NCBI GenBank assembly: GCA_029565675.1
Contig: JAKQNP010000002.1
Span: 682,001 to 746,000, forward strand
Direction of reading: 5' to 3'
Length of the DNA: 64,000 nt
Source of the DNA: a bacterium
GTDB taxonomy: Bacteria; Zhuqueibacterota; Zhuqueibacteria; Residuimicrobiales; Oceaniaggregativiventaceae
Shown piece after piece: positions 23,834-54,572 of the stretch (its first letter is position 1; each line of letters starts with the position of its first letter). The notes beneath the pieces are model-generated. The model saw nothing but the letters and a program-made list of their open reading frames with translations. It was not told where the DNA came from and did no database searches. The translations under genes and the position numbers were made by a program.

Positions 23834-26800
23834 GTGAAGCTGATGAGGATAGTGCAACGGGTTTTATGCATGGCATGGCTGCTGAATGCGGCCGCAGTGT
23901 TGGCAATGCAACCGACCGCCGTGGAACTGCAGTCGGTTGGTGCGTCGGAGATCACCCTAAAGATCCAGTTCGACTCTCTGCGGGTGGTACAGAAGCGGGA
24001 GGGTTCGACATGGATTGCGGTGGTAGAGATGCCCGGATACAGCCGCTTACAGCTGCCGGGCAAACCGGTCTTGCCGATGACACAGCTCATGCTCGCCATT
24101 CCGCCGACCGGGACTCCCGAGTTGGTCGTTGTTGACCAGAATATCGAGACCCGGACGGTTGGTGAGATCGAGCGCGCAAAAGTCGAATCGACGGAACAGA
24201 TCCTGTGGCCGGAGCAAGGCACCGGTTTTCCGGAGCGCTTCATCGAGATGTCGGAGCCGGCCATCGTGCGCCATCAGCGCCTGGTCAAGCTCGAACTCTA
24301 TCCGGTGCGTTATCTGGCGGCCAGTCAGTCGATCCAGTTTTTGCGTTCTGCAACCGTGCGGATTCATTTTTCCCGCACCCCAGACGGATCAATTGATTTG
24401 CCGCGTGTCAAATCGGCGGCTGCAGATCCGGCGTTCGAACAATTTTACCGCAACAGCCTGCTCAACTATGAGCAGGCAAAAGCCTGGCGCGTCCAGCAAG
24501 AGGTGATGCAAGCGGTCGTGGAGAGCGTCTCGCCTTTGCAGGCGCCGTTTCGCTACAAGATCTATTTGCAGGAGGATGGCGTCTATGGCGTCTCCGGCTC
24601 CGAACTCGAGCAAGCCGGTGCCGACTTGTCGACCATCGACCCCAACACTCTGGCGATCAGCAACCGCGGTTCCGCATTGCCAATCCTGGTAGAGGGCGGC
24701 AAGGACGGCCGTTTTGATCCGCAAGATCGGATTGTTTTTATCGGCCAGCATCTGCGCGGTGACTTTAGCCGTTACTCCTGGTATACCGATGAAAATGTCT
24801 ACTGGTTGACCTGGGGGCAGGGCATCGGCGCCCGCTTCAGCGAGGTCTCCGGCATCGACAATGGCACCACAAGCGATACCCTTTTGACATGCCGACAAAA
24901 AATCCACCTCGAACGGGATCTGATCTATGAACGGCTGTTGGATGTGCCGCGCGAGGATTTGGATCACTGGTTCTGGCGCCAAATGAACGGCCATGAAAGC
25001 GGCCTGGGCGTCGATCTGCCTGTTTTCAATCCTGTCGCTGACAGTCCGCTGTCGATTCGCGTTCATCTGTTCGGCCAGACCTCGATCGCTGCGCAGAATC
25101 CAGACCACCACATTCAATTCGCTTTAAACGGCCAGTCGATCGGTGAAATTTACGGCGATGGCAAAAACGATATGCTATTTGAACAGCACCTGCAGAAATT
25201 TACCCTGCAACCGGCCAATAACCGCTTGACATTTTCCCTGCCGGTGGATATCAACGGCTTGAGTGTCGATGCGGTCTTGCTCGACTGGGTGCAAATCGAA
25301 TACGAAAAAGAACTGATCGCTGTGCAGGATTCGCTGCGTTTCGAAATCGAGGGCGGATCGCCGAGGACGGTCTCCTTGCGCGGATTTGTCGATTCTGCAC
25401 CCTATCTGCTGACCACCAGTGGACTGCGGATCGCTCAATATCATGCGGTCCGCGAGGGAGATGCCTATCGCCTCGACTTTACGGCGCGCAATCGCACCGC
25501 AACCGACTATTACGCTGTCAGCCGTGATCGGTTGAAAAAAATCACCGGCTTGACTGCCGACTCACCGTCCGCCTGGCGTTCAACAGCACAAGGGGCGGAC
25601 TATATCATCATCACCCACGCTGATTTTATTGAACCCGCGCAGCGATTGGCCGACTATCGGCGTACCCAGGGCTATCGCACCGCAGTGGTGCGCGTCGACG
25701 ACGTCTATGACGAATTCAACCACGGCATCTATGATCCGCGCGCCATCCGCGCTTTTGTTCACTATGCGTATCACCACTGGCAGAAACCTGCGCCGCTCTT
25801 TTTGTTGCTGTTCGGCGACTCGACCAATCTGATGGACAAAAAGATCGCTCGCTACAGCAAAAAGCCTTCGTTTGTGCCGGCGATGATGGAATACACGCGC
25901 TCCTGGGGCATGACCGCATCGGATAACTATTTCGTCGCGGTCAACGGCGATGATATTCTGCCGGATCTGCTGGTCGGCCGCTTTCCGGCGGCATCTCTGG
26001 AGAATGCCCAGAATCTCGTCGACAAGACCATCGCCTACCGCGATACGCCGATCGTCGACGACTGGCGGCGCCAGGTCTGTTTGCTCACCGGCTCGGAAGG
26101 CGGATTGGCGGAGATGGGCATGACCCTCTACCGCAACTATATCCCCTCCTACATGATGACCAACTTTCTCAATACGGCGGCTGATTCGCCCTATTTTGGC
26201 ACCACCGAGGATCTGGCCGACTACTTCAACAACGGCCAGGTGCTGCTGACCTTTCTCGGACACGGCGGCGGCGGGGTCTATCTGGATACCGAGTTGTTTC
26301 TGACCAAAGATATTGCCCTGCTGAACAACCAGAACAAATATCCGGTGATCTTTAGCATCACCTGCTTTGTCGGCCATTTCGACAATGCGGACACGCCATC
26401 GCTCGGCGAGGAGTTGCTCAAGGCCAAAAACCGGGGGATTGTGGCGCATTTCGGCTCAGCCGGACGCGCCTATATCGGCTATTATGACAATATGCATGAA
26501 TCTCTGTTTGATGCGATCTTTTCCCGCAACGTGCGGCTGATCGGAGAAATTGCCACTCTGGGCAAACTCAATGCGCAGCGTCAGGGCGCCGGGTATTGGG
26601 ATCACATCAAAAATTACCTTTTGCTCGGAGATCCGGCGCTTGCGTTGGCCATCGCCGAAAACACGATCGAACTGACGCTGTCAAAAGAGGTGCTGCTCGC
26701 CGGTGATACCTTGTCGGTGTCAGGCCGCACCCCGGGTGTGGCGAGCGGACAGGTTGTCGTCTCGGTCTACAATGAAGATGAAAAGGAATTGCTGCGCAAG

Positions 26801-28642
26801 AGCCTGCCGGTGCAGAACGGCGCATTTAACGCTCAGCTCTTTGAATTGACCGATTCCTTTCGCCAAAATTGGTCCAAATTGTGGGGCAACGGCATCGTAC
26901 GCGCCTATCTCAGCAACGGCAGCAACGATCAGTCCGGCGCCGCTTCCTTCACCATCAATGAGCCGATCCAGGTCCTGGTGCAGCCGCCGCAACCGCGGCA
27001 TCTGGAATCGATCTATTTCTATATCCATCTGCCGAGTCCCTTGATCGCTGCATTCGGAACGCTTCGCTCGGTCAGCATGGAGTGGTCGGCCAACACCACG
27101 GTCTGGACGCCTTTGCCGATGCAACAAGAACAGCCCGGAATGTGGCGCACGACTGTGCCGGTGGTCGAACAGGGCGGCAGCAAGGTGAATTATCGCTATA
27201 AATTGGTGGGCGATAACGGACAAAGTTTTCAGTCCGATATCGGCACCGTGCAGATCAAAACCATGGCTGATCTGTCGATCGACTATGGTTCAGTCAAGGT
27301 GGGCGGCGACAATCAGCCGAAACTCGAATTTCGGATCAAAAACAACGGCGAGATGGATACCGCTGCCTTTACGGCGATCGTCTACAACGGCAATAAAACA
27401 GAACCTGGATTCGCTATCGACTCGGTGCGCGTGCAAGGCGGCGTGCGGGCCATACAAGACACGCTGGTGACGATCTCGCTGGCGCCGACTCATGTCGGAT
27501 ATAAGCAGTTTACCCTGCAGGTCGATTCGCACAACGAAGTCGAAGAAAGCAACGAAAAGAACAACCACACGAGCAGCGCCAAATTCATCGCCACAATGGC
27601 CAAGGGATCCGGCGGTGCGCTCTATTCGCTGGACGGCAATTTCTTCTGCACGATTCCGGCCAATGCCCTGTCGCACAACACCGCCGTCGTCCTGGATCTG
27701 TTGAAGCCCGATTTTTACCAGGCCGCTGTGGAGAATCTGGCCATTGTGCCGCTGCCTCTGCGGCGCAGCAAATGGGCACCCTGCCGATTGTCGTTCAGCG
27801 ATACAACAGCGGTTTATAGCAAACCGCTGCAGATCGGCGTCTTTTACGATTCTGCGGATTCGCTCACCGCTTGCTACCGCAGGCAGTCCGCGTTGCGCCT
27901 CTATGGCTGGAATGCAAAATCGCAGACCTGGTTTGGCCTCGACAGCCAGATCGACACACTGCGCCAGACGGTCGAGGCGATCATCGAATCGCCGATTCAG
28001 ATCGTCGCTCTGTTCGCCAGCACAGACGGCGAGCCGCCGCAAATTTCGCTGGCGGTACAGGGACAAAATTTCGCCGACGGCGATCGCGTCAGCCACAATC
28101 CGGTTATAACCGCTTTGATCGAAGATGAGAGCGGATTCGATGTCAGCCGCGAACCGGTGCGCCTGAACCTGAACAACCGGCAAATCGATCCATCGCAGTA
28201 CACCCTCTACCAGGCGCCGGACTTGAAGCATCAGCTGACGCTGACGGTTTTTCTCGAGCTGTCCAGCGGTGAGCATGCTTTTGCCATCGAGGCTTGCGAC
28301 GTAAACGGCAACTCTGCGATTCTGTCCACGCATTTTATCGTTGAGGGAGAGTTCGACTTGCTGTCGCTCGCCAATCACCCCAATCCCTTTGCCGAACAGA
28401 CGACCATCGCCTTTTATCTGACCGACACCGCCGAACAAGTCGATCTGGCAATTTTTACGGTTTCCGGACGGCGGATTTGGTCGCATACGATGCGCGAAGC
28501 GACCGGCTATATCGAACTGGATTGGGACGGCCTGGACGAGGATGGGCAACCGGTCGCCAATGGGGTTTATTATTTGCGTTTCACAGCCGTCAGCGGTGAA
28601 AAAAAGATCGAACGAATCGAAAAAATGGCGCGGCTGCAATAA
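23834..28642 (+). CDS. porU: PorU-like C25 (gingipain-family) cysteine peptidase
   Basis: The protein has 1602 residues with a signal peptide (LCMAWLLNAAAVLA). The C25 domain runs from about 588 to 930: GADYIIITHADFIEPAQRLA, then LLFGDSTN and ASDNYFVAVNG. The catalytic His is in FLGHGGGG (H810) and the catalytic Cys in ITCFVGHFD (C844). Ig-like and CARDB-like domains (about 1145-1250, VEESNEKNNH) follow, and a final T9SS-type domain (NHPNPFAEQTTIAF ... LDWDGLDEDG). PorU is the C25 sortase that removes sorting domains in T9SS and is often encoded beside porV, as here. It is several hundred residues longer than Bacteroidota PorU, and could instead be a cargo gingipain. GTG 23834 or ATG 23843 may be the start. 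Confidence 0.8.
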   Translation: MKLMRIVQRVLCMAWLLNAAAVLAMQPTAVELQSVGASEITLKIQFDSLRVVQKREGSTWIAVVEMPGYSRLQLPGKPVLPMTQLMLAIPPTGTPELVVVDQNIETRTVGEIERAKVESTEQILWPEQGTGFPERFIEMSEPAIVRHQRLVKLELYPVRYLAASQSIQFLRSATVRIHFSRTPDGSIDLPRVKSAAADPAFEQFYRNSLLNYEQAKAWRVQQEVMQAVVESVSPLQAPFRYKIYLQEDGVYGVSGSELEQAGADLSTIDPNTLAISNRGSALPILVEGGKDGRFDPQDRIVFIGQHLRGDFSRYSWYTDENVYWLTWGQGIGARFSEVSGIDNGTTSDTLLTCRQKIHLERDLIYERLLDVPREDLDHWFWRQMNGHESGLGVDLPVFNPVADSPLSIRVHLFGQTSIAAQNPDHHIQFALNGQSIGEIYGDGKNDMLFEQHLQKFTLQPANNRLTFSLPVDINGLSVDAVLLDWVQIEYEKELIAVQDSLRFEIEGGSPRTVSLRGFVDSAPYLLTTSGLRIAQYHAVREGDAYRLDFTARNRTATDYYAVSRDRLKKITGLTADSPSAWRSTAQGADYIIITHADFIEPAQRLADYRRTQGYRTAVVRVDDVYDEFNHGIYDPRAIRAFVHYAYHHWQKPAPLFLLLFGDSTNLMDKKIARYSKKPSFVPAMMEYTRSWGMTASDNYFVAVNGDDILPDLLVGRFPAASLENAQNLVDKTIAYRDTPIVDDWRRQVCLLTGSEGGLAEMGMTLYRNYIPSYMMTNFLNTAADSPYFGTTEDLADYFNNGQVLLTFLGHGGGGVYLDTELFLTKDIALLNNQNKYPVIFSITCFVGHFDNADTPSLGEELLKAKNRGIVAHFGSAGRAYIGYYDNMHESLFDAIFSRNVRLIGEIATLGKLNAQRQGAGYWDHIKNYLLLGDPALALAIAENTIELTLSKEVLLAGDTLSVSGRTPGVASGQVVVSVYNEDEKELLRKSLPVQNGAFNAQLFELTDSFRQNWSKLWGNGIVRAYLSNGSNDQSGAASFTINEPIQVLVQPPQPRHLESIYFYIHLPSPLIAAFGTLRSVSMEWSANTTVWTPLPMQQEQPGMWRTTVPVVEQGGSKVNYRYKLVGDNGQSFQSDIGTVQIKTMADLSIDYGSVKVGGDNQPKLEFRIKNNGEMDTAAFTAIVYNGNKTEPGFAIDSVRVQGGVRAIQDTLVTISLAPTHVGYKQFTLQVDSHNEVEESNEKNNHTSSAKFIATMAKGSGGALYSLDGNFFCTIPANALSHNTAVVLDLLKPDFYQAAVENLAIVPLPLRRSKWAPCRLSFSDTTAVYSKPLQIGVFYDSADSLTACYRRQSALRLYGWNAKSQTWFGLDSQIDTLRQTVEAIIESPIQIVALFASTDGEPPQISLAVQGQNFADGDRVSHNPVITALIEDESGFDVSREPVRLNLNNRQIDPSQYTLYQAPDLKHQLTLTVFLELSSGEHAFAIEACDVNGNSAILSTHFIVEGEFDLLSLANHPNPFAEQTTIAFYLTDTAEQVDLAIFTVSGRRIWSHTMREATGYIELDWDGLDEDGQPVANGVYYLRFTAVSGEKKIERIEKMARLQ

Positions 28643-41204: not shown

Positions 41205-42383
41205 ATGGGAAAATTGATATTCATCAGCTATTCCAGCAAGGATTCAGCGGATGCTAAAAGAATATGCAAAATTTTTGAAAAAAATGGTCTTAATTGTTGG
41301 ATTGCACCCCGAGATGTGAGACCTGGGTTTGATTGGGATGAAGAAATCGTTGATGCGATTGAACAAACCCAATTTTTTGTTCTGCTGTTGTCCCATAATT
41401 CAAATATTTCTAATCATGTCAAACGAGAACTAGAACTGGCCCAGACCCAGGAAAAGCATATTTTACCGATCAGAATTGAAGATGTCGAGCCGAGCAAAAG
41501 CCTAAAATATTATATCTCGCACAAACACTGCATCGACGCTATCGAACCCCCGCTGGAAACGAAAATAGGGCCAGCAATTCAAATTATAAAGTCATTGCAT
41601 GACAATGGCGAAGATCCTCCACCATCGCCTGCACCGCAAACAAGGGTTGAAACAACCAATTCACTAAAACATTTCTGCCGGTCTTGGCCGTTCAAGTTAC
41701 TGGTATTCATAACCATTGCTGTTGCCACAGCCGGTTATTTTATTCGAGAAACGAGAATCAACGAAGCTAAAATACTAAGCTCGATTGCCCAAGGTGAATT
41801 TGCAGAAATGCCGCTCAAGCGACTGAATACTCCCAAGAGTCCCGGCATGCAGCAGTTGGCTGAACAAGTTGGCAATCCACTTCAGATGAAAGTCAACTTT
41901 ATCTATCTCGACGACGATCAAGCACGTTTGCAGAACATGTCAACCATGAGCATTTTGCAAAATGTCGAACTGGACAGTACCATGGGCTATCGCTTCGAAG
42001 TGCAGGTTGATCAACCCTGCTTCTTCTATTTGTTCCAATTCGAAGGCAAATCGACGGTTGAGCTGCTTTTCCCTATTTCTAGCTTTGACCTAGAAAATCA
42101 TTTTTTGCAAGATAATCGGTTATATCTTATACCTGGCGGTGTCAACTATTTTTTCTTGAAAGCATCTGATACCCGCCGTGTAATGACTATTTATTTGCTC
42201 GGCTCGCTATGGCGTGCTACGGATATCGAAAAAATATGCCAATGCTATGATCAAGCGGAAAAACCTGAGCAGAAAAAAGAGCTTCGCGATCAGCTGTTGC
42301 AACAGATACAGAAACGAAGCCAGGCTCTTGAGACGGGCTGGAAAGGTCTTTACGTTCAAAAATGGGCTTTATGGAGAAACTAG
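41205..42383 (+). CDS. TIR domain-membrane helix-DUF4384-like protein
   Basis: Residues 1-130 are a TIR domain: LIFISYSSKDSADAKRICKI, WIAPRDVRPGFDWDEEIVDA and FFVLLLSHNSN. E75 in HVKRELEL is at the catalytic Glu position of NADase TIRs. A Pro-rich linker leads to one helix (163-180, FKLLVFITIAVATAGYFI) preceded by basic residues, so the TIR should be cytosolic and the rest periplasmic. The C-terminal 200 residues resemble DUF4384 (GYRFEVQVDQPCFFYLFQFE, STVELLFP). They are nearly the same as the C-terminal half of the protein at 44377. AGGGGTGA precedes ATG 41205. A role as a membrane-triggered NAD-consuming effector or TIR signalling adaptor is inferred. Confidence 0.88.
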   Translation: MGKLIFISYSSKDSADAKRICKIFEKNGLNCWIAPRDVRPGFDWDEEIVDAIEQTQFFVLLLSHNSNISNHVKRELELAQTQEKHILPIRIEDVEPSKSLKYYISHKHCIDAIEPPLETKIGPAIQIIKSLHDNGEDPPPSPAPQTRVETTNSLKHFCRSWPFKLLVFITIAVATAGYFIRETRINEAKILSSIAQGEFAEMPLKRLNTPKSPGMQQLAEQVGNPLQMKVNFIYLDDDQARLQNMSTMSILQNVELDSTMGYRFEVQVDQPCFFYLFQFEGKSTVELLFPISSFDLENHFLQDNRLYLIPGGVNYFFLKASDTRRVMTIYLLGSLWRATDIEKICQCYDQAEKPEQKKELRDQLLQQIQKRSQALETGWKGLYVQKWALWRN

Positions 42384-43028: not shown

Positions 43029-43763
43029 ATGGAAGAGAATTCAAGTGGTAATATTAATAAATACTTACCATTGCTCTACAATGTTGCGCGTTACCGTTAT
43101 AATAAATTGCGACGTCTGATGATAAAACAAATCGAGTATACCGAATTGGTCAATATTGGCTTCTTTGGTTTGAATGAGGCAATCCGGACATTTGATCCTG
43201 GGAAAAAGTGTTCGTTCGAGTCTTATGCGTGGTTCAAAATCAATTGTGCAATCAGTCATGAGATGCGTGTTCGTGATCCCCTCTCAAAGGACAAGCGCAA
43301 TACAATAAAAAAAATACAAAAGACCGAGTCAGAATTGATGCAATTTTTGGGGCGCATGCCAATTGAAGAGGAAATTGCAGAAATGATGGGCATTTCGCTA
43401 AAAAAACTGCAAAAATTGAAAGCCTCAGTCGTTGTCGAAGAGAGTCTGGAAGGGACAAAGGATGAACCAAAAGGCCTCGCCCCTATCGATATCATTCCTG
43501 CAGAAGCGGAGAGATTTATTCCTAAAAAGGTTGAACAATCTTTAGCCAAAGCTGTAGACAATTGCATTAGAGAGTGCCTAAATGCACAACAAACACTCAT
43601 TCTTTTGCTCATGGATTCGCGAGATTTTACTGCCAAGGAGGTGGTTGAACTAATTAAAGATGAGGAGTTGGATCAGAATGCTGTTTATTATCAACGAAAT
43701 GTTGCAAGATCTTTGTTGTCTATTTGTCTGCATAAAAGTGGTTATGTTATCGCAGATCTATAA
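43029..43763 (+). CDS. Sigma-70 family RNA polymerase sigma factor (FliA/SigB-like)
   Basis: Region 2 is clear: YLPLLYNVARYRYNKLRRLM, YTELVNIGFFGLNEAIRTFD and SFESYAWFKINCAISHEMR. This is followed by RDPLSKDKRNTIKKIQKTES and the region-3 pattern LGRMPIEEEIAEMMGISLKK. Region 4 is weak (LNAQQTLILLLMDSRDFTAK). It is of group 3 (FliA/SigB-like) length. It lies between the TIR gene and the zinc-finger protein gene and could control this locus. No ECF-type structure is seen. Confidence 0.85.
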   Translation: MEENSSGNINKYLPLLYNVARYRYNKLRRLMIKQIEYTELVNIGFFGLNEAIRTFDPGKKCSFESYAWFKINCAISHEMRVRDPLSKDKRNTIKKIQKTESELMQFLGRMPIEEEIAEMMGISLKKLQKLKASVVVEESLEGTKDEPKGLAPIDIIPAEAERFIPKKVEQSLAKAVDNCIRECLNAQQTLILLLMDSRDFTAKEVVELIKDEELDQNAVYYQRNVARSLLSICLHKSGYVIADL

Positions 43764-43793: not shown

Positions 43794-44351
43794 ATGCCAA
43801 TTATTATTACATGGAAAACAGCCTTGGCTGCTTGGGAATCAGAGTATCTAACACAAGAAACTCTTTGGCCCCACCCAACGGACGAGGAAATGCAATTGTC
43901 AATTTTGGATCCTGATATAAGGTATGCCATCGTTGAACATATTGCCCGGTGTGCTGTTTGTGCTGACCGTTTCCGGCAGCAGCAAAGAAGAGAAACCCTA
44001 TCGGTTGTACAGGGATGGACAGTTATTCAGCGCAAGGCTGCGGCTGGAGAAGCAAAAGAGTACCCAATTCTATATTTTTCAGAAAAAGGTGAATATAAAT
44101 TAGAGATCCTGCAAAGTACGGGTGGTGGTAATGAGGGACTAGTAATTTTAAGCCTGACCAACCCCAAGTGGGCAGCAGAAAGCGAGGGAAAGGAATATAT
44201 GGTTTGTGACGCACGTGGCCGCACTCTGTTACAGAAAAAGGTGACGCATGGAAAGGCCTTGCAGAAAATAGACAGACTGTATGAAATCGATGACCAGAGT
44301 TTTCTGATTCGTCCTTTAACCTCTCCAAATCAAATGCAAGGTGAGAGCTGA
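43794..44351 (+). CDS. Zinc-finger anti-sigma-like protein
   Basis: Residues around IVEHIARCAVCADRFRQQQ match the HxxxCxxC of zf-HC2 anti-sigma domains. The C-terminal 120 residues are predicted beta-rich (YPILYFSEKGEYKLEILQS ... YMVCDARGRTLLQKKVTHGK) with no recognised family and no membrane helix. AAAGGA precedes ATG 43794. It begins 30 bases after the sigma-factor gene, the standard position for a cognate anti-sigma factor. The beta-rich part may sense a ligand or pair with DUF4384-type domains; that is a guess. Confidence 0.65.
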   Translation: MPIIITWKTALAAWESEYLTQETLWPHPTDEEMQLSILDPDIRYAIVEHIARCAVCADRFRQQQRRETLSVVQGWTVIQRKAAAGEAKEYPILYFSEKGEYKLEILQSTGGGNEGLVILSLTNPKWAAESEGKEYMVCDARGRTLLQKKVTHGKALQKIDRLYEIDDQSFLIRPLTSPNQMQGES

Positions 44352-44376: not shown

Positions 44377-45732
44377 ATGTCTCTGACTGAAGAAAAGCAC
44401 ATTGCGGTATATGCTCTTTTTTCCGATTGCAGCATGGCTAAGATCATGTTGGCTACTTTTGAGCGAAGTGGTGGGGATCGTCCTGAACTTGACTCATTGA
44501 TTGATGATGTCACAATGAACAAGTCTGCCAAGCGTGCTCTGAACGTGGCGTTGAAGCACTATCAAGCTTATAAATTACCACGTTATCCAGGCTATCAGAT
44601 TGTATGGGAATTTGCTGGAAATGCACAAGCTCTCAATAATTATATAGGGACCAGCGCTGGACTGGCCCTTTTTATTCGTTTCCTGTTGCTGTTTCTGCAA
44701 GCCCAGTTTCCAAATTTTGCTTCATTCTCAGTGGCAGCCACCGGTGAACTGGGCGAATTGAGCGATCAGTCAGCCATACATCCCATCGACGCTTTTCCGG
44801 AGAAATTGAATACTGCTGTTGCTCTGCTAAAAAGAGGCGATAAATTTTTCTATCCAAAAGACAATGAAAAAGAGATATCGGATGCTTTGCGCCAAAAAGT
44901 CGCTGCCAAAGGTTTGGAACTTTACCCTGTCACTTCTACATTTGAAGTTGCAAAATATGTCAGGGAATGGTTTCCTGTAGAACAGAAAACATGGAAGAGA
45001 AAATTAGATTCATTTTTCAGATTTGCCAAGGCTCACAATAAGCTGATGGCGTTTGTATGTCTTTTTGTTCTATGTGGCCTTTTATGGAATTTTTTTGAAC
45101 AAGGAATGAACCAGCAAGAACTAGTTGCATTTGTAGAAAAGGGCGAATTTGAAAGTGTGCCGCTTGAGCGATTGCGTGCGGCAGAAGATCCTGATTTACG
45201 TCGTCTCGCACATAAAACCCGTACGCCGCTAACTCTGAAATGTGATTTTGTCTATTTGGATCATGATAGACCAAGACTTCAAGATGCATCATCTTTGAAC
45301 CTGATGCAAAATGCTAATTTGAACAGTGAGGCGGGATATCGTTTTGAAGTCCTGGCTGAGATGCGCTGTTTTTTCTATTTGTTTCAATTTGAGGGTAATA
45401 CAATGGTAGAGCTCCTCTTCCCGGCATCAAGTTTTGATCTGGAAAACCATTTTCTCCAAGATCAACAACTCTATTTTATCCCGGGTGGAATTCAATATTT
45501 CTATTTCAAGGTATCTCATTCTCGACAATTGGTCACGCTTATCTTTTTGGGATCTTTATGGCGCGCCAGAGATATCGAGATTTTGTGCAGAAAATATGAT
45601 CAGTCTCAGTCTTTGGATAAAAAGAAAGGGTATCGAGATGAAATATTACACAGAATACAGAGAAGAAGCCAGGCTTTGGACAATGGCTGGGAAGGTCTAT
45701 ATGTGCAAAAAAGTTACTTTTGGCGGCAATAA
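44377..45732 (+). CDS. Lon (S16)-like domain-membrane helix-DUF4384-like protein
   Basis: The N-terminal 200 residues resemble the Lon proteolytic domain. GTSAGLALF carries the catalytic-Ser position (S93), followed by AATGEL, then PEKLNTAVALLKRGDKFFYP with the catalytic-Lys position (K143), and YPVTSTFEVAKYV. There is no AAA+ ATPase domain. A helix (about 223-240, LMAFVCLFVLCGLLWNFF), preceded by basic residues, puts this domain in the cytosol. The C-terminal half is a close paralog of that in the TIR protein, sharing FFYLFQFEG, SSFDLENHFLQD and GSLWRA-DIE. The pair shows swapping of effector heads on one sensor module. Peptidase activity is inferred from the Ser and Lys positions only. Confidence 0.8.
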   Translation: MSLTEEKHIAVYALFSDCSMAKIMLATFERSGGDRPELDSLIDDVTMNKSAKRALNVALKHYQAYKLPRYPGYQIVWEFAGNAQALNNYIGTSAGLALFIRFLLLFLQAQFPNFASFSVAATGELGELSDQSAIHPIDAFPEKLNTAVALLKRGDKFFYPKDNEKEISDALRQKVAAKGLELYPVTSTFEVAKYVREWFPVEQKTWKRKLDSFFRFAKAHNKLMAFVCLFVLCGLLWNFFEQGMNQQELVAFVEKGEFESVPLERLRAAEDPDLRRLAHKTRTPLTLKCDFVYLDHDRPRLQDASSLNLMQNANLNSEAGYRFEVLAEMRCFFYLFQFEGNTMVELLFPASSFDLENHFLQDQQLYFIPGGIQYFYFKVSHSRQLVTLIFLGSLWRARDIEILCRKYDQSQSLDKKKGYRDEILHRIQRRSQALDNGWEGLYVQKSYFWRQ

Positions 45733-45981: not shown

Positions 45982-46728
45982 ATGATTAAAAAAGACGATG
46001 AAATCGACAATAAGTATGATGGTGGGCGTAAAGCCAGACCGGGCTGGCCCAAATACCTTATCGTCCTGGTTCTATTCATCAGCGCGAGTTATATCGTGTA
46101 CCTTCTATGTTTTTTGCCACTTGCAGAGCACAAGAGCGATAAAAGGGCTGTGATGGATTCTATTTCGCATCATGAGACCATGGCACGCGAGGCTCTGGCT
46201 CAGGGGAAATATCAAGAGGTCTGGCAAGAAATCCAGAAGAATCATCTTGCAGAACTTTCTGCCGAGTTACAGGATCAGCTGGAGGTGACCTTTTATTTTA
46301 AATACGATCTTCCTCAAGCCGTTCCTGCAGTGGATGACCGCTTGCAGCTGCCCATCAACACGCGCTATTGGATCGTTCTTCATCCGAGTGAAACCTGTTA
46401 TATCTACTTATTGCAATGCAATACTGCGGGTGAATGGCAGCAATTATTTCCCAATACCAAGTACGCGGAAGGGGAGAATCCCTCCACATCTGGTGAAATC
46501 TATATACCCAAATATGGCCGTTTTCTGAATGAAACCGGTCAGGGGACAGAAAGGCTCTACCTTTTGGCAACACGCTGGCGTCAGGACTATTTAGAAAATT
46601 TGATTTTAAAAGCAGTTCAGAATGCTGATCACGAGCAGCCATTGCTGGACTATATTGAACTAAATCTTGGTGCAAAGCTGGCTCATGCGGGCATTGTGTG
46701 CAAGGAATTTGCTTTTGACCATCTATGA
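45982..46728 (+). CDS. Membrane-anchored DUF4384-like protein without effector
   Basis: A short cytosolic tail (about 23 residues, charged) leads to one helix (YLIVLVLFISASYIVYLLCF). The periplasmic part resembles DUF4384: TRYWIVLHPSETCYIYLLQ, WQQLFPNTKYAEGEN and GEIYIPKYGRF. It lacks the TIR or Lon-like head of its two upstream relatives and is diverged from them. It is a candidate adaptor or decoy that bridges their sensor domains. AAGG lies 8 bases before ATG 45982. Confidence 0.75.
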   Translation: MIKKDDEIDNKYDGGRKARPGWPKYLIVLVLFISASYIVYLLCFLPLAEHKSDKRAVMDSISHHETMAREALAQGKYQEVWQEIQKNHLAELSAELQDQLEVTFYFKYDLPQAVPAVDDRLQLPINTRYWIVLHPSETCYIYLLQCNTAGEWQQLFPNTKYAEGENPSTSGEIYIPKYGRFLNETGQGTERLYLLATRWRQDYLENLILKAVQNADHEQPLLDYIELNLGAKLAHAGIVCKEFAFDHL

Positions 46729-46743
46729 TAATAGGAGCTATAT

Positions 46744-47895
46744 ATGAGAATGAAAAGCTATGGAATAGGAGTCGTGCTGACATTTATGTGGATTCTGCCG
46801 CTATTGGCGCAGGTTCACGTGGATACGACGTTTAAGGGATCCACTGAGATTGCAGCACATCTATTGCGTCTTAGGGCACCTTCTCCAAATGTACGCCCGA
46901 GTGACCTGGAATTGCGCCTGGATATCAATTTTGATCTCGATTCGGATTTATTGCGACCGGATGCCAAAGCCCAATTGGATACGCTGGCCAGGGTTTTGAA
47001 AATGGATGGTTTTGTGAAAACAAGAATTGAGCTGGCGGGGCATACCTGTGATATAGGCAGTCAACAATATAATCTTGACCTTTCGCAAAGAAGAGTCCGT
47101 TATGCGGTGGAGTATCTGGTAGGCAAGGCTGGTATCACCGCGGATCGGATTTCATATCGCGCGTATGGGGAGGAATTGCCACTGATCGCAGGCGCCAAAA
47201 GTGAACAAGAGCGTCGTGTGAACCGCCGAGTGGTGGTATATCTGCCGGAAAACCGGACAGCCCTGGAGAAAATGCTGCGGGAAATGCCCATGGCGCAGGG
47301 ATTCCGCTGGGCCGTTTTTCGATATGACCAGAGCGGAAAAGCGACCCTGGTGTCCTATGATGGCTCCAGCGTGCTGCACAGTGGAGATCAATATCGCGTT
47401 TATATGCGGCCTTCGCGGAGCAAATATATTTATCTGTATCAACAGGACAGCCGAGGCAATGCGGCATGGATTTTTCCGCGTACCGACCTGGGTCTTTCCA
47501 ATCCCATGCATGCAGGCGAGTATTTTCTTCCCAGCCGGACCAAAGTGTTCACGTTGGATAGCACCACCGGCACAGAGACTCTGCACCTCGTGGTGAGCGA
47601 CGACCCAGTTCCGGAATTGGAAAAACTCACAGATCAGAATAATCTGCAAAAACTGGCGGAAGGTTTTTCACAGACGGTTATTGTCAAAGGACTTTATGAA
47701 GTGCGGCAGGCGATCATACCGGAGGAAGGGAATGCCAACATCCGGTCGCAGACCGTGGTGGTGGGAGCCCCGAATCAGCGAACCCAACAAAAGGAATACC
47801 GGATTGACGCAGACCCCGCCATAGGGCAGGATATCCTGACCGTGATGGCACAGCATCGGGAGTTTTATATGGCGATGACTTTTGGGCATGAGTGA
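46744..47895 (+). CDS. OmpA-DUF4384 fusion, periplasmic
   Basis: A signal peptide (GIGVVLTFMWILPLLAQ) leads to an OmpA-like peptidoglycan-binding domain (about 54-165): LDINFDLDSDLLRPDAKAQL, ELAGHTCDIGSQQYNLDLSQ and RRVNRRVVVYL. A DUF4384-like domain follows (FRWAVFRYDQSGKAT, YRVYMRPSRSKYIYLYQQD, AAWIFPRTD, AGEYFLPS). There is no barrel. It would tether DUF4384 to the cell wall, possibly contacting the periplasmic halves of the inner-membrane relatives. It starts 15 bases after the preceding gene, so they are co-transcribed. Confidence 0.85.
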   Translation: MRMKSYGIGVVLTFMWILPLLAQVHVDTTFKGSTEIAAHLLRLRAPSPNVRPSDLELRLDINFDLDSDLLRPDAKAQLDTLARVLKMDGFVKTRIELAGHTCDIGSQQYNLDLSQRRVRYAVEYLVGKAGITADRISYRAYGEELPLIAGAKSEQERRVNRRVVVYLPENRTALEKMLREMPMAQGFRWAVFRYDQSGKATLVSYDGSSVLHSGDQYRVYMRPSRSKYIYLYQQDSRGNAAWIFPRTDLGLSNPMHAGEYFLPSRTKVFTLDSTTGTETLHLVVSDDPVPELEKLTDQNNLQKLAEGFSQTVIVKGLYEVRQAIIPEEGNANIRSQTVVVGAPNQRTQQKEYRIDADPAIGQDILTVMAQHREFYMAMTFGHE

Positions 47896-48124: not shown

Positions 48125-51100
48125 ATGAAAACAAGAAAAAATGTACCTATCCCGTTTATCTACATCTTAATTATTTTTTGTTGTTGTATTGCTCAAAATG
48201 GTTTTTCTCAAACCATTATTCAGCCGGGTCCTATAACTGGGATATGGACAGCTACAGGTCAGCCATATATTATAACGGGCGATGTTTATGTTTTGGATTC
48301 ACTCTTTATTGAACCTGGAGTACATGTTCAATTCCAGGCTGGTGGATGGCAATTAGAGGTTGGTAAGGGTAAGAAATTAATCGCAAAGGGCACTGCGAAT
48401 ACCCCAATTATTTTTGAGCCGTTTCAAGGGGAGATCTCTGGTTCTTGGAATACAATTTCTTTTAATGATACGGGTCACGATGATACAGTTGAGTACTGTG
48501 TAATGCGATTTGGTACTGAGGGGATCTATGTCTATGATTCTGCTCCGAAAATCAATGATTGCATTGTATACAAGAACTTGACTAATGGAATTAACTTACA
48601 ATATCGTCATTCTGTCGACAGTATTTTAGTCAGAAATTGTAAAATACACGAAAATGGTAATGGAATACGCTTCACTGGATATGATAGATATGGAAAAGTC
48701 AGTGTGACGGGAAATATTTATCGTTGCAGTATATATAACAATAAGCAAAATGGTGTAATGGTGACTTCAGGTACGTATTGGACTTCAGGAGATGCATATG
48801 CATTGGCCGAGATAACGAATTGTACAATATATGGTAATGCCACTGGTGTGCGTGCTTATGCATATCGTGGCTATGCAGATGCCAAAATCACGAATTCGAT
48901 AATAGCTGGATGTGATTCCGGCGTCGTTAATCAAGATAGCCGTAGTTTTATCGGGGAGAATGATATTATATATAGTTGTTTTTGGGATAATAATGTTGAT
49001 AATTTTATTGGATTGAAAAATCCGATTATCGGTTTTGGTCCCCCACTTACAACTATAAATGTAAACGGTGATTCGTGTGATGGAAACTTTAATTTATTTC
49101 TTGATCCATTATTTTCTAATGCGCAGGATGATGATCTTTATTTGCGAGCTGCCTCTTCATGTATCAATGCAGGAACTCCTATTATAATGAACAGCTATTT
49201 TTTAGATGCTGATAATTCCTTACCAGATCTAGGTGCTTTATGGCCTCCTATTCAAACCAATGGAGATGATCTCAAACCTACCATATACAATTTATTAGTG
49301 GAACCGAATCCCACCAATGGAGCAACCGAGATTATACTTTCAGCCACTATTTCTGATGAAACAACTGGAAACAGCCATATAGTCCAGGCTGAGTATTTTA
49401 TCGATACTCCTGGTGATCCTGGAACGGGTATTTCTATGATGGGTACTTTTACAGCTTCTTCCGTAAACGTTATGGCGACCATTTTAACCAGTGCTATAGG
49501 ACCACCACCATCAACCAACAAACTTTACGTCCGCGGTATGGATGCCAGCAACAATTGGAGCGATCTGGATTCAGTCACTGTTTGGGTGACCGATGCACCT
49601 GTGGCAGAAAATATGGTTATCCCTGACACCTCCGCTTTTGCAGGCAGCAGGATCACTATCCCACTGCGAATCAAGGATGCTGCGGGCGTAGCAGGTGCTG
49701 AGCTCAAATTGACATACGATGCCGACATTCTGGAGGCAAAGGCTATTCATAAAACTGCCCTGACCGATTCCTTTTTTTCTGAGCAGAACCTTTCCAGCGG
49801 CAGCTGTTCCATTACTATGGCACGTGCGACTGCTTTGCCACCAGGCGGCGGCATTTTTCTGAATGTTGATTTCGATGTCCGAGATACTGCCCAATCCGGA
49901 GACACCACAACCATTTATTTTGCTGTCGCCAAGTTCTATGCAGAGAATACCAATACGATAACAATGACCACGAAAAACGGACTGTTCACAGTAACTGATA
50001 GAACGGAACTAGTGGAAATAGTTGTTTCTCCACAAAGCGACACGCTTGCTCTCAATACTACATTAGAACTGACTGCTGTTGGCAAGGATGCTCAGGGTAG
50101 AAATGTGACGGTTACTCCCGACTGGCGCGTTGAATCCTTCTATGGCGACATTGGTTCAGTCAATCCAAAGCAGGACGCAACATCTACCACGTTCACCGCC
50201 TCCGGCGCCGGCGATGGCGTGGTTATAGCCACTCAGGAGGGCAGGTCTGATAGCTGCATCATCGTTGTCGGTAAAACCCGCGGCGATATAAATATCGATG
50301 ACCGCGTCGATGTCAAGGATGCCATCCTCGGATTGCAGATCATTGTAGAAATGTTTACCCCCCACCTCTATCAACTTTGGGCGGCTGATCATGGTGGTGA
50401 TGGGCTTGTTCTTGAGAATGATATTCAAGCGATATTACAAGATGCTCTTGGTACAATGTTGCCCAAAACGACTCTCTTTTCGAGTCCGGCTTTTATTTAT
50501 CCTGGCCAGGCGGAAAGACGCCCGGACGGTCTGTTCAGTGTCCCAGTTTTTGCCCAACAGCGGCCTGATCTTGCCGCCGGTGGCCTGGAAGTCACGTATG
50601 ACGCGAAACAAATCACGCCAGTGGCTGTCCATGCGAGCCGCTCATCCACCCTGTTGATGAGTAATTTTAGCAAGGAGGGGACTATTCTGGTTTCATCGCT
50701 GGATTCTGAAACATTGATCGATAGAGAGGGCGTCTGGATGTATCTGCTTTTCCGAAGAAAGTCTTCTGCTAAAATAACTGAGCTCCATATTAAAAATATC
50801 CGTCTGTTCGACCAGGCCGGCCAGGCAATTTCTGCCGAGTTAGGATATGGTTCAGGTTTAGAGGCCGCACAGCCGGAGGGTTTTCAACTTTATCAGAATC
50901 ATCCAAACCCGTTCAATCCGGGCACTTTTATCCGCTACGATTTGCCCGTGTCCGGACAAGTCGAACTGGCTGTCTATAACACTGCTGGTCAATTGGTCCA
51001 GTATCTAGTCAATTGCCAAATGCCTGCAGGTGCACACTCGGCACACTGGAATGGCCGCGATATGACTGGACGTCAGGCTCCCTCTGGTGTATATTTTTAC

Positions 51101-51160
51101 CGTTTAACAGTAGACAAGGGTGCGTGGTACAAGATCCAAAAGATGAGCCTGGTAAAATAA
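48125..51160 (+). CDS. Beta-helix, cohesin, dockerin-like T9SS cargo protein
   Basis: ATG 48125 has GGAGG 5 bases upstream, better than ATG 48113. After a signal peptide (IPFIYILIIFCCCIAQ) come about 350 residues of right-handed beta-helix with repeated NxTNGI / NGNGIRF / NKQNGVMV turns. A cohesin-like domain follows (IPDTSAFAGSRITIPLRIKD ... GAELKLTYDADILEAKAI), then an Ig-like part, a dockerin-like pair of calcium loops (GDINIDDRVDVKDAILGLQI), a second cohesin-like domain and the T9SS domain (HPNPFNPGTFIRYDL, HWNGRDMTGR). It is 1011 residues. Its C-terminal architecture from the first cohesin onwards is shared with the protein at 55285. Probably a surface scaffold or glycan binder. Confidence 0.85.
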   Translation: MKTRKNVPIPFIYILIIFCCCIAQNGFSQTIIQPGPITGIWTATGQPYIITGDVYVLDSLFIEPGVHVQFQAGGWQLEVGKGKKLIAKGTANTPIIFEPFQGEISGSWNTISFNDTGHDDTVEYCVMRFGTEGIYVYDSAPKINDCIVYKNLTNGINLQYRHSVDSILVRNCKIHENGNGIRFTGYDRYGKVSVTGNIYRCSIYNNKQNGVMVTSGTYWTSGDAYALAEITNCTIYGNATGVRAYAYRGYADAKITNSIIAGCDSGVVNQDSRSFIGENDIIYSCFWDNNVDNFIGLKNPIIGFGPPLTTINVNGDSCDGNFNLFLDPLFSNAQDDDLYLRAASSCINAGTPIIMNSYFLDADNSLPDLGALWPPIQTNGDDLKPTIYNLLVEPNPTNGATEIILSATISDETTGNSHIVQAEYFIDTPGDPGTGISMMGTFTASSVNVMATILTSAIGPPPSTNKLYVRGMDASNNWSDLDSVTVWVTDAPVAENMVIPDTSAFAGSRITIPLRIKDAAGVAGAELKLTYDADILEAKAIHKTALTDSFFSEQNLSSGSCSITMARATALPPGGGIFLNVDFDVRDTAQSGDTTTIYFAVAKFYAENTNTITMTTKNGLFTVTDRTELVEIVVSPQSDTLALNTTLELTAVGKDAQGRNVTVTPDWRVESFYGDIGSVNPKQDATSTTFTASGAGDGVVIATQEGRSDSCIIVVGKTRGDINIDDRVDVKDAILGLQIIVEMFTPHLYQLWAADHGGDGLVLENDIQAILQDALGTMLPKTTLFSSPAFIYPGQAERRPDGLFSVPVFAQQRPDLAAGGLEVTYDAKQITPVAVHASRSSTLLMSNFSKEGTILVSSLDSETLIDREGVWMYLLFRRKSSAKITELHIKNIRLFDQAGQAISAELGYGSGLEAAQPEGFQLYQNHPNPFNPGTFIRYDLPVSGQVELAVYNTAGQLVQYLVNCQMPAGAHSAHWNGRDMTGRQAPSGVYFYRLTVDKGAWYKIQKMSLVK

Positions 51161-51255: not shown

Positions 51256-51993
51256 ATGAAAATTAAATTTGGTTGGTGGATTCTTTTCATTTTCTTCGGT
51301 TTGCTTCATTCATTCAGTTATTCGGCCACGTTGCTCATCCCGGAACGCCAGGGACCTCCGGGCAGCTTTGTACGGGTGGATATTGCCGTAGAGGGAGCGG
51401 ACAGTTTGGCAGGAATGGCGGCTGTATTGGAGTATGATTTGAATTTTTTAGAGTTTGTGCGTGTAGAGAGCGAAGTGCAGGTGCATGATTTTCTCGTCGT
51501 CAGCAAGGAAAATGAGAACCAGATCGCGATTGCTATGGCACAGCCACAGCCGGTCGGCCAACCGTATGCAGTGATCTGTGCCTTGACGTTTCGCATCCGA
51601 CAGTCCGTTGAGACGGGTACAGCCACCGAATTGACCTGGCGTTCCTCGCAGCTCTATTCTGTCACCACGGCATCCATCGCGCATGAGGTCCTGCACGGTG
51701 TCGTGCGAGTTCGTGATATTTCTTGCTATCCCAATCCCTTCACTCCGGATGGCAATGGTATCAACGATGTGGTGGTTTTCAGTCTGCCAGAAGAGATGAT
51801 GCCAGCCGCGGTGGTGAAAATATTTGCGCTGGGGGGATATCTGATCCGCGAATTGAAAGCCAATGGAGGTTCTTTTATTCAATGGGATGGCAGGGATGGG
51901 GATGGAGACATCTGTAAGCCTGGCGTCTATCTATACCTGGTATTGATGAACGATGAACCACTCCATAAAGGCACCATTACACTGATGCTCTGA
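51256..51993 (+). CDS. Short cohesin-like protein with C-terminal sorting domain
   Basis: ATG 51256 with AGAGGTC upstream is chosen over the longer frame to 51013, which lies in the preceding gene. A signal peptide (WWILFIFFGLLHSFSYSA) precedes one cohesin-like domain (RQGPPGSFVRVDIAVEGADS, AVLEYDLNFLEFVRV). The end has YPNPFTPDGNGINDVVVFSL and WDGRDGDGDICKPGVYLYLV, a gliding/T9SS-type C-terminal domain. It has no dockerin of its own and could pair with the dockerin-like parts of its neighbours. Confidence 0.8.
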   Translation: MKIKFGWWILFIFFGLLHSFSYSATLLIPERQGPPGSFVRVDIAVEGADSLAGMAAVLEYDLNFLEFVRVESEVQVHDFLVVSKENENQIAIAMAQPQPVGQPYAVICALTFRIRQSVETGTATELTWRSSQLYSVTTASIAHEVLHGVVRVRDISCYPNPFTPDGNGINDVVVFSLPEEMMPAAVVKIFALGGYLIRELKANGGSFIQWDGRDGDGDICKPGVYLYLVLMNDEPLHKGTITLML

Positions 51994-52052
51994 GAACCAG
52001 GGATATGCTCCGTGTTTATTGGATTGCAGAGTCATTCTACAAGGAGTGCGAG

Positions 52053-54572
52053 ATGAAACGATATATTTTCATATTATTATTCCTAACAGTAGTGGTTGTC
52101 CATGGCCAATCATTTTTGCCATTGAACAGCAGTTACCCGGATGGGTATCTGTTGGGATTTTACAACCCGGCGCCGCTGGCTTTGGAAGGTCACATGCGGG
52201 CCACGGTGGGCATGCAATTCCTTAATCCAGGTCTTTCCGGAGATGCCTTGCGCAATCAGTATATCAGCGCCATGATGCCTTTGGGCGAACGGAGCGCACT
52301 TGGTTTGCGAACACAATATTTCACATCCGATGTGCTGCAAAATTTACAGTTGTCATTACAGGCAAGTCACTTATTGTTTCGCGGAAAACTGGCTTTCGGA
52401 ATCAGTGCCAGTATGCTCCATCATAGTTTTAACAAGGACAAGTTTTTTCTTTTTGACATGAACGATCCAGTCATTGCCAATGGTACCAGTGTCAGTGTCT
52501 TTTCCATTGGAGGTGGTTTGTATTTCCAACCGTTCGATGGATTTCACATGGGTTTGGCCGCAGATCATCTCAACGAACCGGATGTATCCCTCAATGAATC
52601 GGGTATTTGTCAAAGGACTGTCTACCATGCCGGCCTTACCTATTCAGGCCTGCCACTGGTGCCGCAATTTGAGGTGCGTATGGAAGACGAAGCGCTGTTG
52701 ACTCAGATGGGTGCGCACCTGTGTCTGCTGGACCAGAGATTGCGTCTCTTTGCAGGCTATAATCGATATTCCCATGAGGGGAGCAATCTGTTGGTCGAAG
52801 GTGAATTGCGCATTGGCAATCTCGGCTTTGTCTATGGTTTTCAGCATCCTTTATTGACAGACTTTGCTCATCTTTCCAGCGGCAGCCATCAGATTGGTAT
52901 TGTGTTTGCTGGCGGCGGAGAAACAGGATCGATTCCAACGGTGAATTTGGAAAATCTCAGCAGCCGGCTGCAAATTCCGCAAGCCTGGCTCAAAGGCAAG
53001 GCAAGTAACAGGGACGGGCTGCGAAAAATCGAAATGCGCATCAATGACCGACTCTGGAAAACGCTTTCAGGCTCGGATTTAAAAAATGCAAAAACATTTG
53101 ATGTGAGTGAAACGATTCCCCTGGAATTGGGGCGAAATATTATCCAGGTTACTGCTCAGGGAAGAGACGTCTCCGCATCTGATAAAGTATTCACCCTTTT
53201 TGAACCCGAAGCCCCGCATGTACAAATACGCTCGATAAAGAATGTTCAGTCCAGGGAAAGAGACTATGCATTGCACTTTTCTGTTCAAGACCCGAATGAT
53301 ATCAAACGGGTACGCATATATTTGGGAACTGACCAGATTGAGGACATTACCCGTTTTCCGGATCCCAAATCGGCTGATATTACCCGGCCGGTCGTTTTGG
53401 CAGAAGGGAAGAACAGGATTAAAATCGTGGCCGAGAATGCCTGGTTGAGCGCCGCTGATTCAGCGTGGATCGATCTTCGTCCGTTCGAACCTGTTCCGTC
53501 TCTGGTTATTGATTCGCCCGATTTGCCCATTTCTCCTTCCAGTCAGATTATCATCAATCTGGATCTTGAAAATGCGGAAAATATTAAAGAAGTGATCATC
53601 AAAGTGAATGGCACCATAGTCGACACGGCGCGGGTCCGGCGCACCCGGTTATTCGGCATCGCTGATGTGGTGGGTTATGACAGCACGGTTGTTGTGAACC
53701 TGACCAGCCAAAAGAAGAACCTGATCGAGGCCATTGCGTTGGATGATGAAGGTTTGCCGCGCATCAGTCAAAAACTTGATGTTTATTATAATCCTTACGC
53801 CCGTGAAATGCGCTATAGCAGGAAAAAGGCTTATATCATCGGCATCAACAATTACAAAAACAGTACCATACCCGATTTAGTGGATGCAATTCCAGATGCC
53901 AAATCTGTGGCAGCAGTGCTTGATTCGGTGCATCATTTCGATCAGATTCAGCTTTTGTTGGATGAACAAGCCAATTTTGAGAGTTTGTATTCTCTGTTCA
54001 GTGACACGCTTGCACGGGCCAAACCGGGCGAGTTTATCGTTATTTTCTTTTCCGGTCACGGTGACAAACTGGCGCCTTCCACCAGAGATCCCTTGGGATT
54101 TCTGCTGCCATGGGATGCTGAATTGGATTCCTATTCAAAACGAATCACCATGGATTTTATCAATGGTTATTTGCGAAGTACCGAAGCTGCTGATGTCCTG
54201 TGTATCTTTGATGCCTGCTTCAGTGGAGCAGCCATTGTTACGCCGCCTCAAGTGACCTATGAGCTTTTGCCAACAGAAGTCGGCTATGACAGGTTGCGGA
54301 TCGAAAGGAAGAAGAAAGCGCTCAATCTGCTCACAGCGGCCAGCCGTCATGAGCCTGCTGTGGATGGTCTGTTTACGCGCCTACTGGTGCGCGGTCTATG
54401 TGGTTCCGCAGATCACAATGACGATGGTTATATCACCTCCACAGAACTTGGTTTATATACGCGTAAATTTGTCACTGATGAAGCGCGTAACCGCTATCGG
54501 CGTGAGCAGAATCCGCAGTTTGGTGGACTGTTTAGTGAATTTGGCGAATGTGTGTTCGAACGAGGAAGATGA
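52053..54572 (+). CDS. PorP/SprF-like barrel fused to Ig-like region and caspase domain
   Basis: ATG 52053 with AAGGAG upstream gives a signal peptide (FILLFLTVVVVHGQS). Residues about 20-290 resemble the PorP/SprF outer-membrane family (YNPAPLALEGHMRATVGMQF, NPGLSGDALRNQYISAMMPL, KLAFGISASM). About 300-560 look like Ig or bacterial Ig domains (RQ-, IKVNG-type). A caspase-like (C14) domain starts at about 589: RKKAYIIGINNYKNS, then IVIFFSGHGDKL with catalytic H669 and LCIFDACFSGAAI with catalytic C722. It is 839 residues. A caspase attached to a T9SS-type outer-membrane barrel is unusual. It is probably an envelope sensor or executioner; the domain may face the periplasm. Confidence 0.85.
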   Translation: MKRYIFILLFLTVVVVHGQSFLPLNSSYPDGYLLGFYNPAPLALEGHMRATVGMQFLNPGLSGDALRNQYISAMMPLGERSALGLRTQYFTSDVLQNLQLSLQASHLLFRGKLAFGISASMLHHSFNKDKFFLFDMNDPVIANGTSVSVFSIGGGLYFQPFDGFHMGLAADHLNEPDVSLNESGICQRTVYHAGLTYSGLPLVPQFEVRMEDEALLTQMGAHLCLLDQRLRLFAGYNRYSHEGSNLLVEGELRIGNLGFVYGFQHPLLTDFAHLSSGSHQIGIVFAGGGETGSIPTVNLENLSSRLQIPQAWLKGKASNRDGLRKIEMRINDRLWKTLSGSDLKNAKTFDVSETIPLELGRNIIQVTAQGRDVSASDKVFTLFEPEAPHVQIRSIKNVQSRERDYALHFSVQDPNDIKRVRIYLGTDQIEDITRFPDPKSADITRPVVLAEGKNRIKIVAENAWLSAADSAWIDLRPFEPVPSLVIDSPDLPISPSSQIIINLDLENAENIKEVIIKVNGTIVDTARVRRTRLFGIADVVGYDSTVVVNLTSQKKNLIEAIALDDEGLPRISQKLDVYYNPYAREMRYSRKKAYIIGINNYKNSTIPDLVDAIPDAKSVAAVLDSVHHFDQIQLLLDEQANFESLYSLFSDTLARAKPGEFIVIFFSGHGDKLAPSTRDPLGFLLPWDAELDSYSKRITMDFINGYLRSTEAADVLCIFDACFSGAAIVTPPQVTYELLPTEVGYDRLRIERKKKALNLLTAASRHEPAVDGLFTRLLVRGLCGSADHNDDGYITSTELGLYTRKFVTDEARNRYRREQNPQFGGLFSEFGECVFERGR

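Follow-up and report, generated by a model that had tools for sequence, protein, structure and literature searches.

What is a caspase doing at the end of an outer-membrane barrel? The question is raised by one gene in the 64,000-nucleotide stretch of DNA analysed here (‘the window’), from an uncultured bacterium of the candidate phylum KSB1, whose product had been predicted from its sequence to combine a PorP/SprF-type barrel, an Ig-like middle and a caspase-like protease, and to act as an ‘envelope-facing’ enzyme that perhaps responds to damage or foreign contact. To our knowledge, the roles described so far for PorP/SprF carriers are to hold and to shuttle surface proteins, and most bacterial caspase homologues have no assigned substrate.

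A single gene encodes barrel, Ig-like domains and caspase

The gene reads as 839 uninterrupted codons on the forward strand (52053-54572), from a start that is preceded by a ribosome-binding site (Table 1); an alternative, longer reading from an ATG at 52005 is without one. The possibility that the two parts were joined by a frameshift, raised along with the original prediction, or by formation of a chimera, is excluded by the existence of four divergent full-length homologues, each on a separate contig, and the fusion is hence confirmed as a genuine single protein. These homologues came from the search for other barrel-caspase fusions that had been suggested at the outset, and were found among 82 KSB1 genomes (G034, G066, G056 and G009), along with a copy in G039 that is cut by the contig end. 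They share 27-32% identity with the window protein, with the G056 and G009 fusions being 56% identical to each other.

Distribution of the fusion is sporadic (6/82 KSB1 genomes), with no match in a genome of the same genus (G047); as the named homologues derive from Zodletone metagenome bins, the sampling is biased. No full-length fusion was found at 1e-20 in a sample of 395 Bacteroidota genomes, with up to two candidates scored in each. A search of contigs with the window protein alone as query gave no match, and one with the alignment as query returned the known KSB1 fusions together with caspase-only proteins.

The N-terminal part of the protein is matched in Pfam by PorP_SprF (PF11751) at residues 36-284 (E = 1.6e-15; 57.8 bits against a cutoff of 22.3), and in NCBIfam by the PorP family model TIGR03519 at residues 1-285 (3.5e-19; 69.3 bits, below the curated cutoff of 90.55). 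AlphaFold2 predicts 14 strands within residues 48-287, both in a full-length run (30-sequence alignment; mean pLDDT 81.5; pTM 0.43, which is low and does not fix the relative placement of the domains) and in a barrel-only run (five sequences; pLDDT 65.7, moderate confidence), and matches of the barrel model in the PDB are to the outer-membrane barrels FadL and OmpG. Structure prediction, proposed as a check on whether the N-terminal half is a barrel at all, therefore agrees with the original assignment. The Ig-like middle is borne out too, in that three such domains are present in the AlphaFold2 model and a Foldseek search with the full-length model gave mostly Ig-domain matches; in Pfam this region has weak matches to Big_7 and Glucodextran_B, with Big_7 exceeding its cutoff in one homologue (L072).

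Table 1. Features of the barrel-caspase gene and its neighbourhood, in window coordinates.
Feature	Position	Strand	Evidence
Barrel-Ig-caspase fusion protein, 839 aa	52053..54572	+	Intact ORF, stop included; PorP_SprF and Peptidase_C14 above Pfam cutoffs; full-length homologues
Ribosome-binding site AAGGAG	52041..52046	+	6 bases before the 52053 start; sequence read directly
Predicted signal peptide, aa 1-18, MKRYIFILLFLTVVVVHG	52053..52106	+	Translation; model helix 2-14, low confidence
PorP/SprF-type outer-membrane barrel, 14 strands, aa 48-287	52194..52913	+	PF11751; two AlphaFold2 runs; FadL/OmpG matches
Three Ig-like domains, approx. aa 296-383, 389-475, 483-579	52938..53789	+	AlphaFold2; Foldseek Ig matches
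Caspase domain, aa 590-836	53820..54560	+	PF00656; metacaspase profile match; AlphaFold2
Catalytic His669 codon	54057..54059	+	Invariant in 30/30 aligned sequences
D720-A721-C722: acidic S1-pocket candidate and catalytic Cys	54210..54218	+	D720 and C722 invariant, 30/30
Partner cargo: signal peptide, cohesin domain, type B (CHU_C) T9SS sorting domain	51256..51993	+	Cohesin 1.9e-8; CHU_C 2.4e-7
Sigma factor, FliA/WhiG-like	43029..43763	+	Sigma70_r2 5e-9, r3 4.7e-8; FliA_WhiG 6.2e-28, below cutoff
Candidate anti-sigma, small, H-x3-C-x2-C (HIARCAVC)	43794..44351	+	Motif; no TM segment; no Pfam/NCBIfam match
Inner-membrane protein: N-terminal half without family, TM 219-237, DUF4384-like C-terminal half	44377..45732	+	DUF4384 0.0019, below cutoff
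TM + DUF4384 protein	45982..46728	+	DUF4384 1e-6; TM 21-39
OmpA + DUF4384 protein	46744..47895	+	OmpA 6.8e-16; DUF4384 3.7e-10
Large cohesin protein, FlgD-like (type A like) C-terminus	48125..51160	+	Cohesin 9.4e-19; FlgD_ig 1e-7
TIR-TM-DUF4384 protein	41205-42383		Pfam and TM prediction

The caspase domain retains its catalytic residues

Peptidase_C14 (PF00656) is matched at residues 590-727 (E = 3.4e-9, above the Pfam cutoff), the sole C14 match in the genome; Peptidase_C25 has no Pfam match in the protein. The domain as a whole (590-836) is modelled mostly with high confidence, with low values for the loops at approximately 670-680 and 720-750. Numbering from 52053, the catalytic dyad falls exactly where the original prediction had placed it, with His669 in the motif FFSGHGD and Cys722 in DACFSGA. 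These two residues and Asp720 are invariant across the alignment, and the His, Cys and acidic residue are kept in all five full-length fusions; invariance that suggests selection for activity.

Searching the PDB with the single caspase domain sequence gave no match, and a caspase profile picked out metacaspase-1 (8.9e-13), making metacaspases the nearest solved relatives. The fusion shares with these (4f6o, 6w8s and 7qp0) the catalytic His/Cys pair and an acidic residue two before the Cys, such that Asp720 aligns with the first position of their D-S-C; unlike the fusion, however, they are eukaryotic, soluble and without a membrane domain. We infer a putative protease activity with a preference for Arg or Lys.

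The fusion as a probable carrier with a periplasmic tail

The gene that ends 59 bp before the fusion gene encodes a secreted cargo (Table 1), whose CHU_C match is the best genome-wide. Its sorting domain, above the Pfam cutoff for CHU_C, scores better against the C-terminus of PorZ (1.5e-8) than against the NCBIfam type B model TIGR04131 (3.1e-5, below cutoff). At all six barrel-caspase genes the gene directly upstream, on the same strand, is a type B cargo (CHU_C E-values from 2.4e-7 to 3.9e-13), with bodies that vary among genomes (cohesin, ASH/HYDIN-like Ig, LamG + fn3). Type B cargo genes also lie upstream of most of the ordinary KSB1 PorP genes examined.

Neighbouring type B cargo is bound and exported by PorP/SprF carriers; it needs its partner carrier and is retained by it (PMC9143113, PMC12618676), so that a carrier role for the fusion is well supported. 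The link to T9SS made in the original prediction is upheld by the genome itself, which encodes SprA (SprA_N 1.9e-46), PorV-like proteins and four C25 peptidases. One of these four lies within the window, as a 1602-aa ORF (23834-28642) with a Peptidase_C25 (gingipain/PorU family) domain. PorA of P. gingivalis was considered as a type B precedent and dropped, PGN_1317 being the single type B protein of that species.

The established pairs, SprB-SprF of F. johnsoniae and PG1035-PorP of P. gingivalis, share with our locus the 14-stranded barrel and family match, the type B cargo gene directly upstream and a T9SS-bearing genome; those carriers, however, end in a short tail, whereas in the fusion Ig domains and a caspase take its place. 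Gliding-type SprF also has a Cys-x-Cys after the barrel for its disulfide with GldK. This motif is absent from the entire fusion protein, with no Cys at all in residues 290-585, which argues that the fusion does not make an SprF-style linkage to the gliding track.

Which side of the membrane, then, does the caspase face? In four KSB1 barrels of the same family (L010, L011, L017 and L020) the fusion partners are OmpA domains, and these bind peptidoglycan. The C-terminal tail of SprF is periplasmic (PMC12635249). Because of these two observations we place the caspase most likely in the periplasm, and a position on the cell exterior is disfavoured; the ‘envelope-facing’ enzyme originally proposed would need to be recast as one that faces the periplasm. 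That the fusion is an outer-membrane protein, a carrier for the neighbouring cargo and the bearer of a periplasmic caspase is, on this evidence, very probable.

The PorP-OmpA fusions are also instructive as relatives, having the same barrel family, a long periplasmic extension and, where seen, a type B cargo upstream; their extension ends in peptidoglycan-binding domains, that of the barrel-caspase fusion in a protease. They resemble a PorP-PorE complex in one chain. Four further KSB1 PorP barrels (L012, L013, L015 and L025), again with a type B cargo gene upstream, are extended at the C-terminus by some 300 aa without a Pfam match.

The view that caspase-like domains are usually cytosolic, which accompanied the original prediction, does not hold well, as it is not uncommon for homologues to carry an N-terminal export signal (PMC3501461). 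Three Bacteroidota proteins in our own searches (L153, L155 and L156) combine an apparent signal peptide with Ig repeats and a caspase at the C-terminus, and would be exported without a barrel. They belong with L080, L090 and L095 to a group of exported proteins from Desulfobacterota and Bacteroidota, of Ig-caspase or TPR-Ig-caspase build, in which Ig-like domains are likewise followed by a related caspase; unlike the fusion, these have neither an outer-membrane barrel nor a recognised cargo partner.

Sigma-like and candidate anti-sigma genes, and other neighbours

A sigma-like gene and a gene for an H-x3-C-x2-C protein, upstream and on the same strand, are found in 5/5 assessable barrel-caspase clusters, weakly supported in some, and such an upstream same-strand protein in 0/14 control PorP loci without a caspase (one, L163, has a motif match on the opposite strand); as some of the control loci are orthologous to others, these counts are not independent trials. 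In G056 and G009 an ECF-type sigma gene and a gene for a single-pass zf-HC2 protein, the outer part of which is of TPR type, stand directly before the cargo gene. G066 and G034 have a second sigma pair, mutually homologous and further upstream, in which zf-HC2 and sigma matches are weak or missing (the G034 sigma has no family match, and was called through its similarity to the weak ECF match of G066). No similarity is detectable between the G034/G066 and G056/G009 pairs, which are not one orthologous set, and the window differs again in its FliA-like sigma and its zinc-finger-motif protein without a family match. In both the window and G066 the sigma pair is set apart from the cargo gene by several others.

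All but one of the five zinc-finger proteins are single-pass, with a C-terminal domain predicted to be periplasmic. A single-pass membrane anti-sigma beside the sigma gene is clear in G056 and G009 and weaker in G066 and G034; the window protein is without a TM segment. Matches to zf-HC2 are few in any one genome (4-22). Judged from these sequence comparisons, the sigma association appears to exceed what chance would readily give, though the pairs are not all orthologous.

Between the sigma pair and the cargo gene of the window lies a gene (44377..45732) whose product is 50% identical over 231 aa to the TIR-TM-DUF4384 protein encoded further upstream. The two are paralogues, in which the cytosolic halves differ and the identity lies in the TM-DUF4384 halves; it looks as if different cytosolic outputs had been exchanged on a shared periplasmic module. 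DUF4384 also occurs in cyanobacterial caspase homologues (PMC7475262).

Discussion

We suggest that the fusion may act as a cargo-specific T9SS type B carrier, the periplasmic tail of which has been turned into a ‘protease arm’ made of three Ig-like domains and a metacaspase-like domain, with the upstream gene supplying the cognate cargo. Exported by the T9SS, this cargo would be retained at the cell surface by the barrel, and its loading, or a change in its bound state, might be relayed through the barrel to the periplasmic side, for the caspase there to cleave a target after Arg or Lys. The likeliest target would be the anti-sigma encoded upstream or, as an alternative for the window, a membrane protein that exposes a domain to the periplasm, such that surface status could be passed to transcription by regulated proteolysis. 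Within this scheme the protease activity and its preference for Arg/Lys, the triggering by cargo, the choice of substrate and the connection to sigma are all putative.

There are precedents for individual steps. The SprF-GldK adduct forms only after SprB has been exported and loaded, and cargo loading is thus felt at the periplasmic side (PMC12635249); the sigma inhibitor Csx30 is cut by Csx29, a relative of caspases, and RseA by DegS (PMC10028731). In both the Csx29-Csx30-CASP-sigma system of type III-E CRISPR and the DegS-RseA-sigmaE system, a caspase-group or periplasmic protease acts on a sigma inhibitor, and genes for a sigma-like protein and a candidate inhibitor lie near our fusions too; here, by contrast, there is no RNA guide and no PDZ protease, the protease forms one chain with an outer-membrane carrier, and the inhibitor is a putative target. 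Taken as a whole, the chain in which a carrier, through its periplasmic caspase, signals the state of its cargo or of the surface by cutting a target in the periplasm is a possibility that we rate at somewhat below an even chance. The more specific version, a new form of trans-envelope signalling in which the carrier reads the state of a T9SS surface protein, its caspase cleaves the anti-sigma and transcription changes as a result, is more doubtful still; counted against both versions are the lack of a single orthologous set of sigma pairs, the genes that lie between pair and cargo in the window and G066, the sporadic distribution of the fusion and the alternative that the sigma pair could simply control expression of the carrier unit. 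Direct support for a response to damage or foreign contact was not found, the context being instead that of a cargo-carrier pair with a sigma/anti-sigma module.

Much of the same evidence, that on topology and the carrier role included, would also suit a form of secretion quality control, in which the periplasmic caspase breaks down its own cargo, or other proteins, once export has stalled or the carrier is blocked, and the sigma pair only sets expression. Each carrier has one cargo, and the Ig-caspase module also stands alone in proteins destined for export, in some of them alongside TPR or PDZ domains; such a role would, however, leave the recurrent sigma/anti-sigma neighbours unexplained, and as the cargo domains differ among genomes a common cargo cleavage site is not evident, such that we think it unlikely. 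The invariant His, Cys and acidic residue, in the five full-length fusions and 30/30 relatives, weigh against a different proposal, namely that the caspase fold is inactive in the cell and serves only as a structural or binding module by which the tail anchors the barrel; OmpA-fused sister carriers do fill the same place, which speaks for the idea, yet we consider it quite improbable. Of similarly low probability is a role in dedicated cargo processing, with the caspase removing the type B sorting domain, or attaching the cargo, in place of a PorU-type sortase. PorU is a clan CD cysteine peptidase that acts on T9SS cargo, the fusion protease is likewise of clan CD, and the cargo gene adjoins the fusion gene; but PorU belongs to C25 and works on the opposite face of the membrane, whereas the fusion protease belongs to C14, is joined to a carrier and would sit in the periplasm, the wrong side for PorU-like action. 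A conserved Arg or Lys, sought in the cargo linker before PNPFTPN as expected for a CTD-cleaving sortase, was not found (there is no Arg or Lys at all in that of G056 and G009), and replacement of PorU is further disfavoured by the four C25 proteins already in the genome. PorU is reported to cleave CTDs (PMC4804311). A further point against a processing role is that type B cargo in its PorP complex was found to retain its CTD (PMC9143113).

A cell-death or defence effector has also to be considered, since caspase domains occur in conflict systems; here a phage or competitor touching the surface cargo would fire the caspase and bring about death or arrest, perhaps together with the TIR-DUF4384 neighbour encoded in the window. 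PADLOC matches the domain to a caspase model, and the NCBIfam model for EACC1-associated caspases (NF047832) is matched at 49.9 bits, short of its curated cutoff of 140. Against this, the TIR-DUF4384 gene was rejected as a core component, as it was not found at the other barrel-caspase loci and has its full-length match in this genome only, and the cargo-carrier pairing is normally shown by ordinary KSB1 PorP genes too; we regard such a function as distinctly unlikely.

Both halves of the protein belong to known families. The fusion itself, the fact that divergent KSB1 lineages have conserved it and the genes around it are undescribed in the literature searched, on caspases with PorP/SprF or the T9SS; this is not proof of novelty. 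Finally, if the periplasmic protease is intact and conserved, the PorP/SprF carrier would become an active part of the system, and not a mere holder or shuttle, and our model of regulated proteolysis would provide a concrete link between T9SS cargo status and transcription. A caspase placed at the outer membrane, with defined neighbours, could also reveal a substrate for a bacterial caspase homologue.
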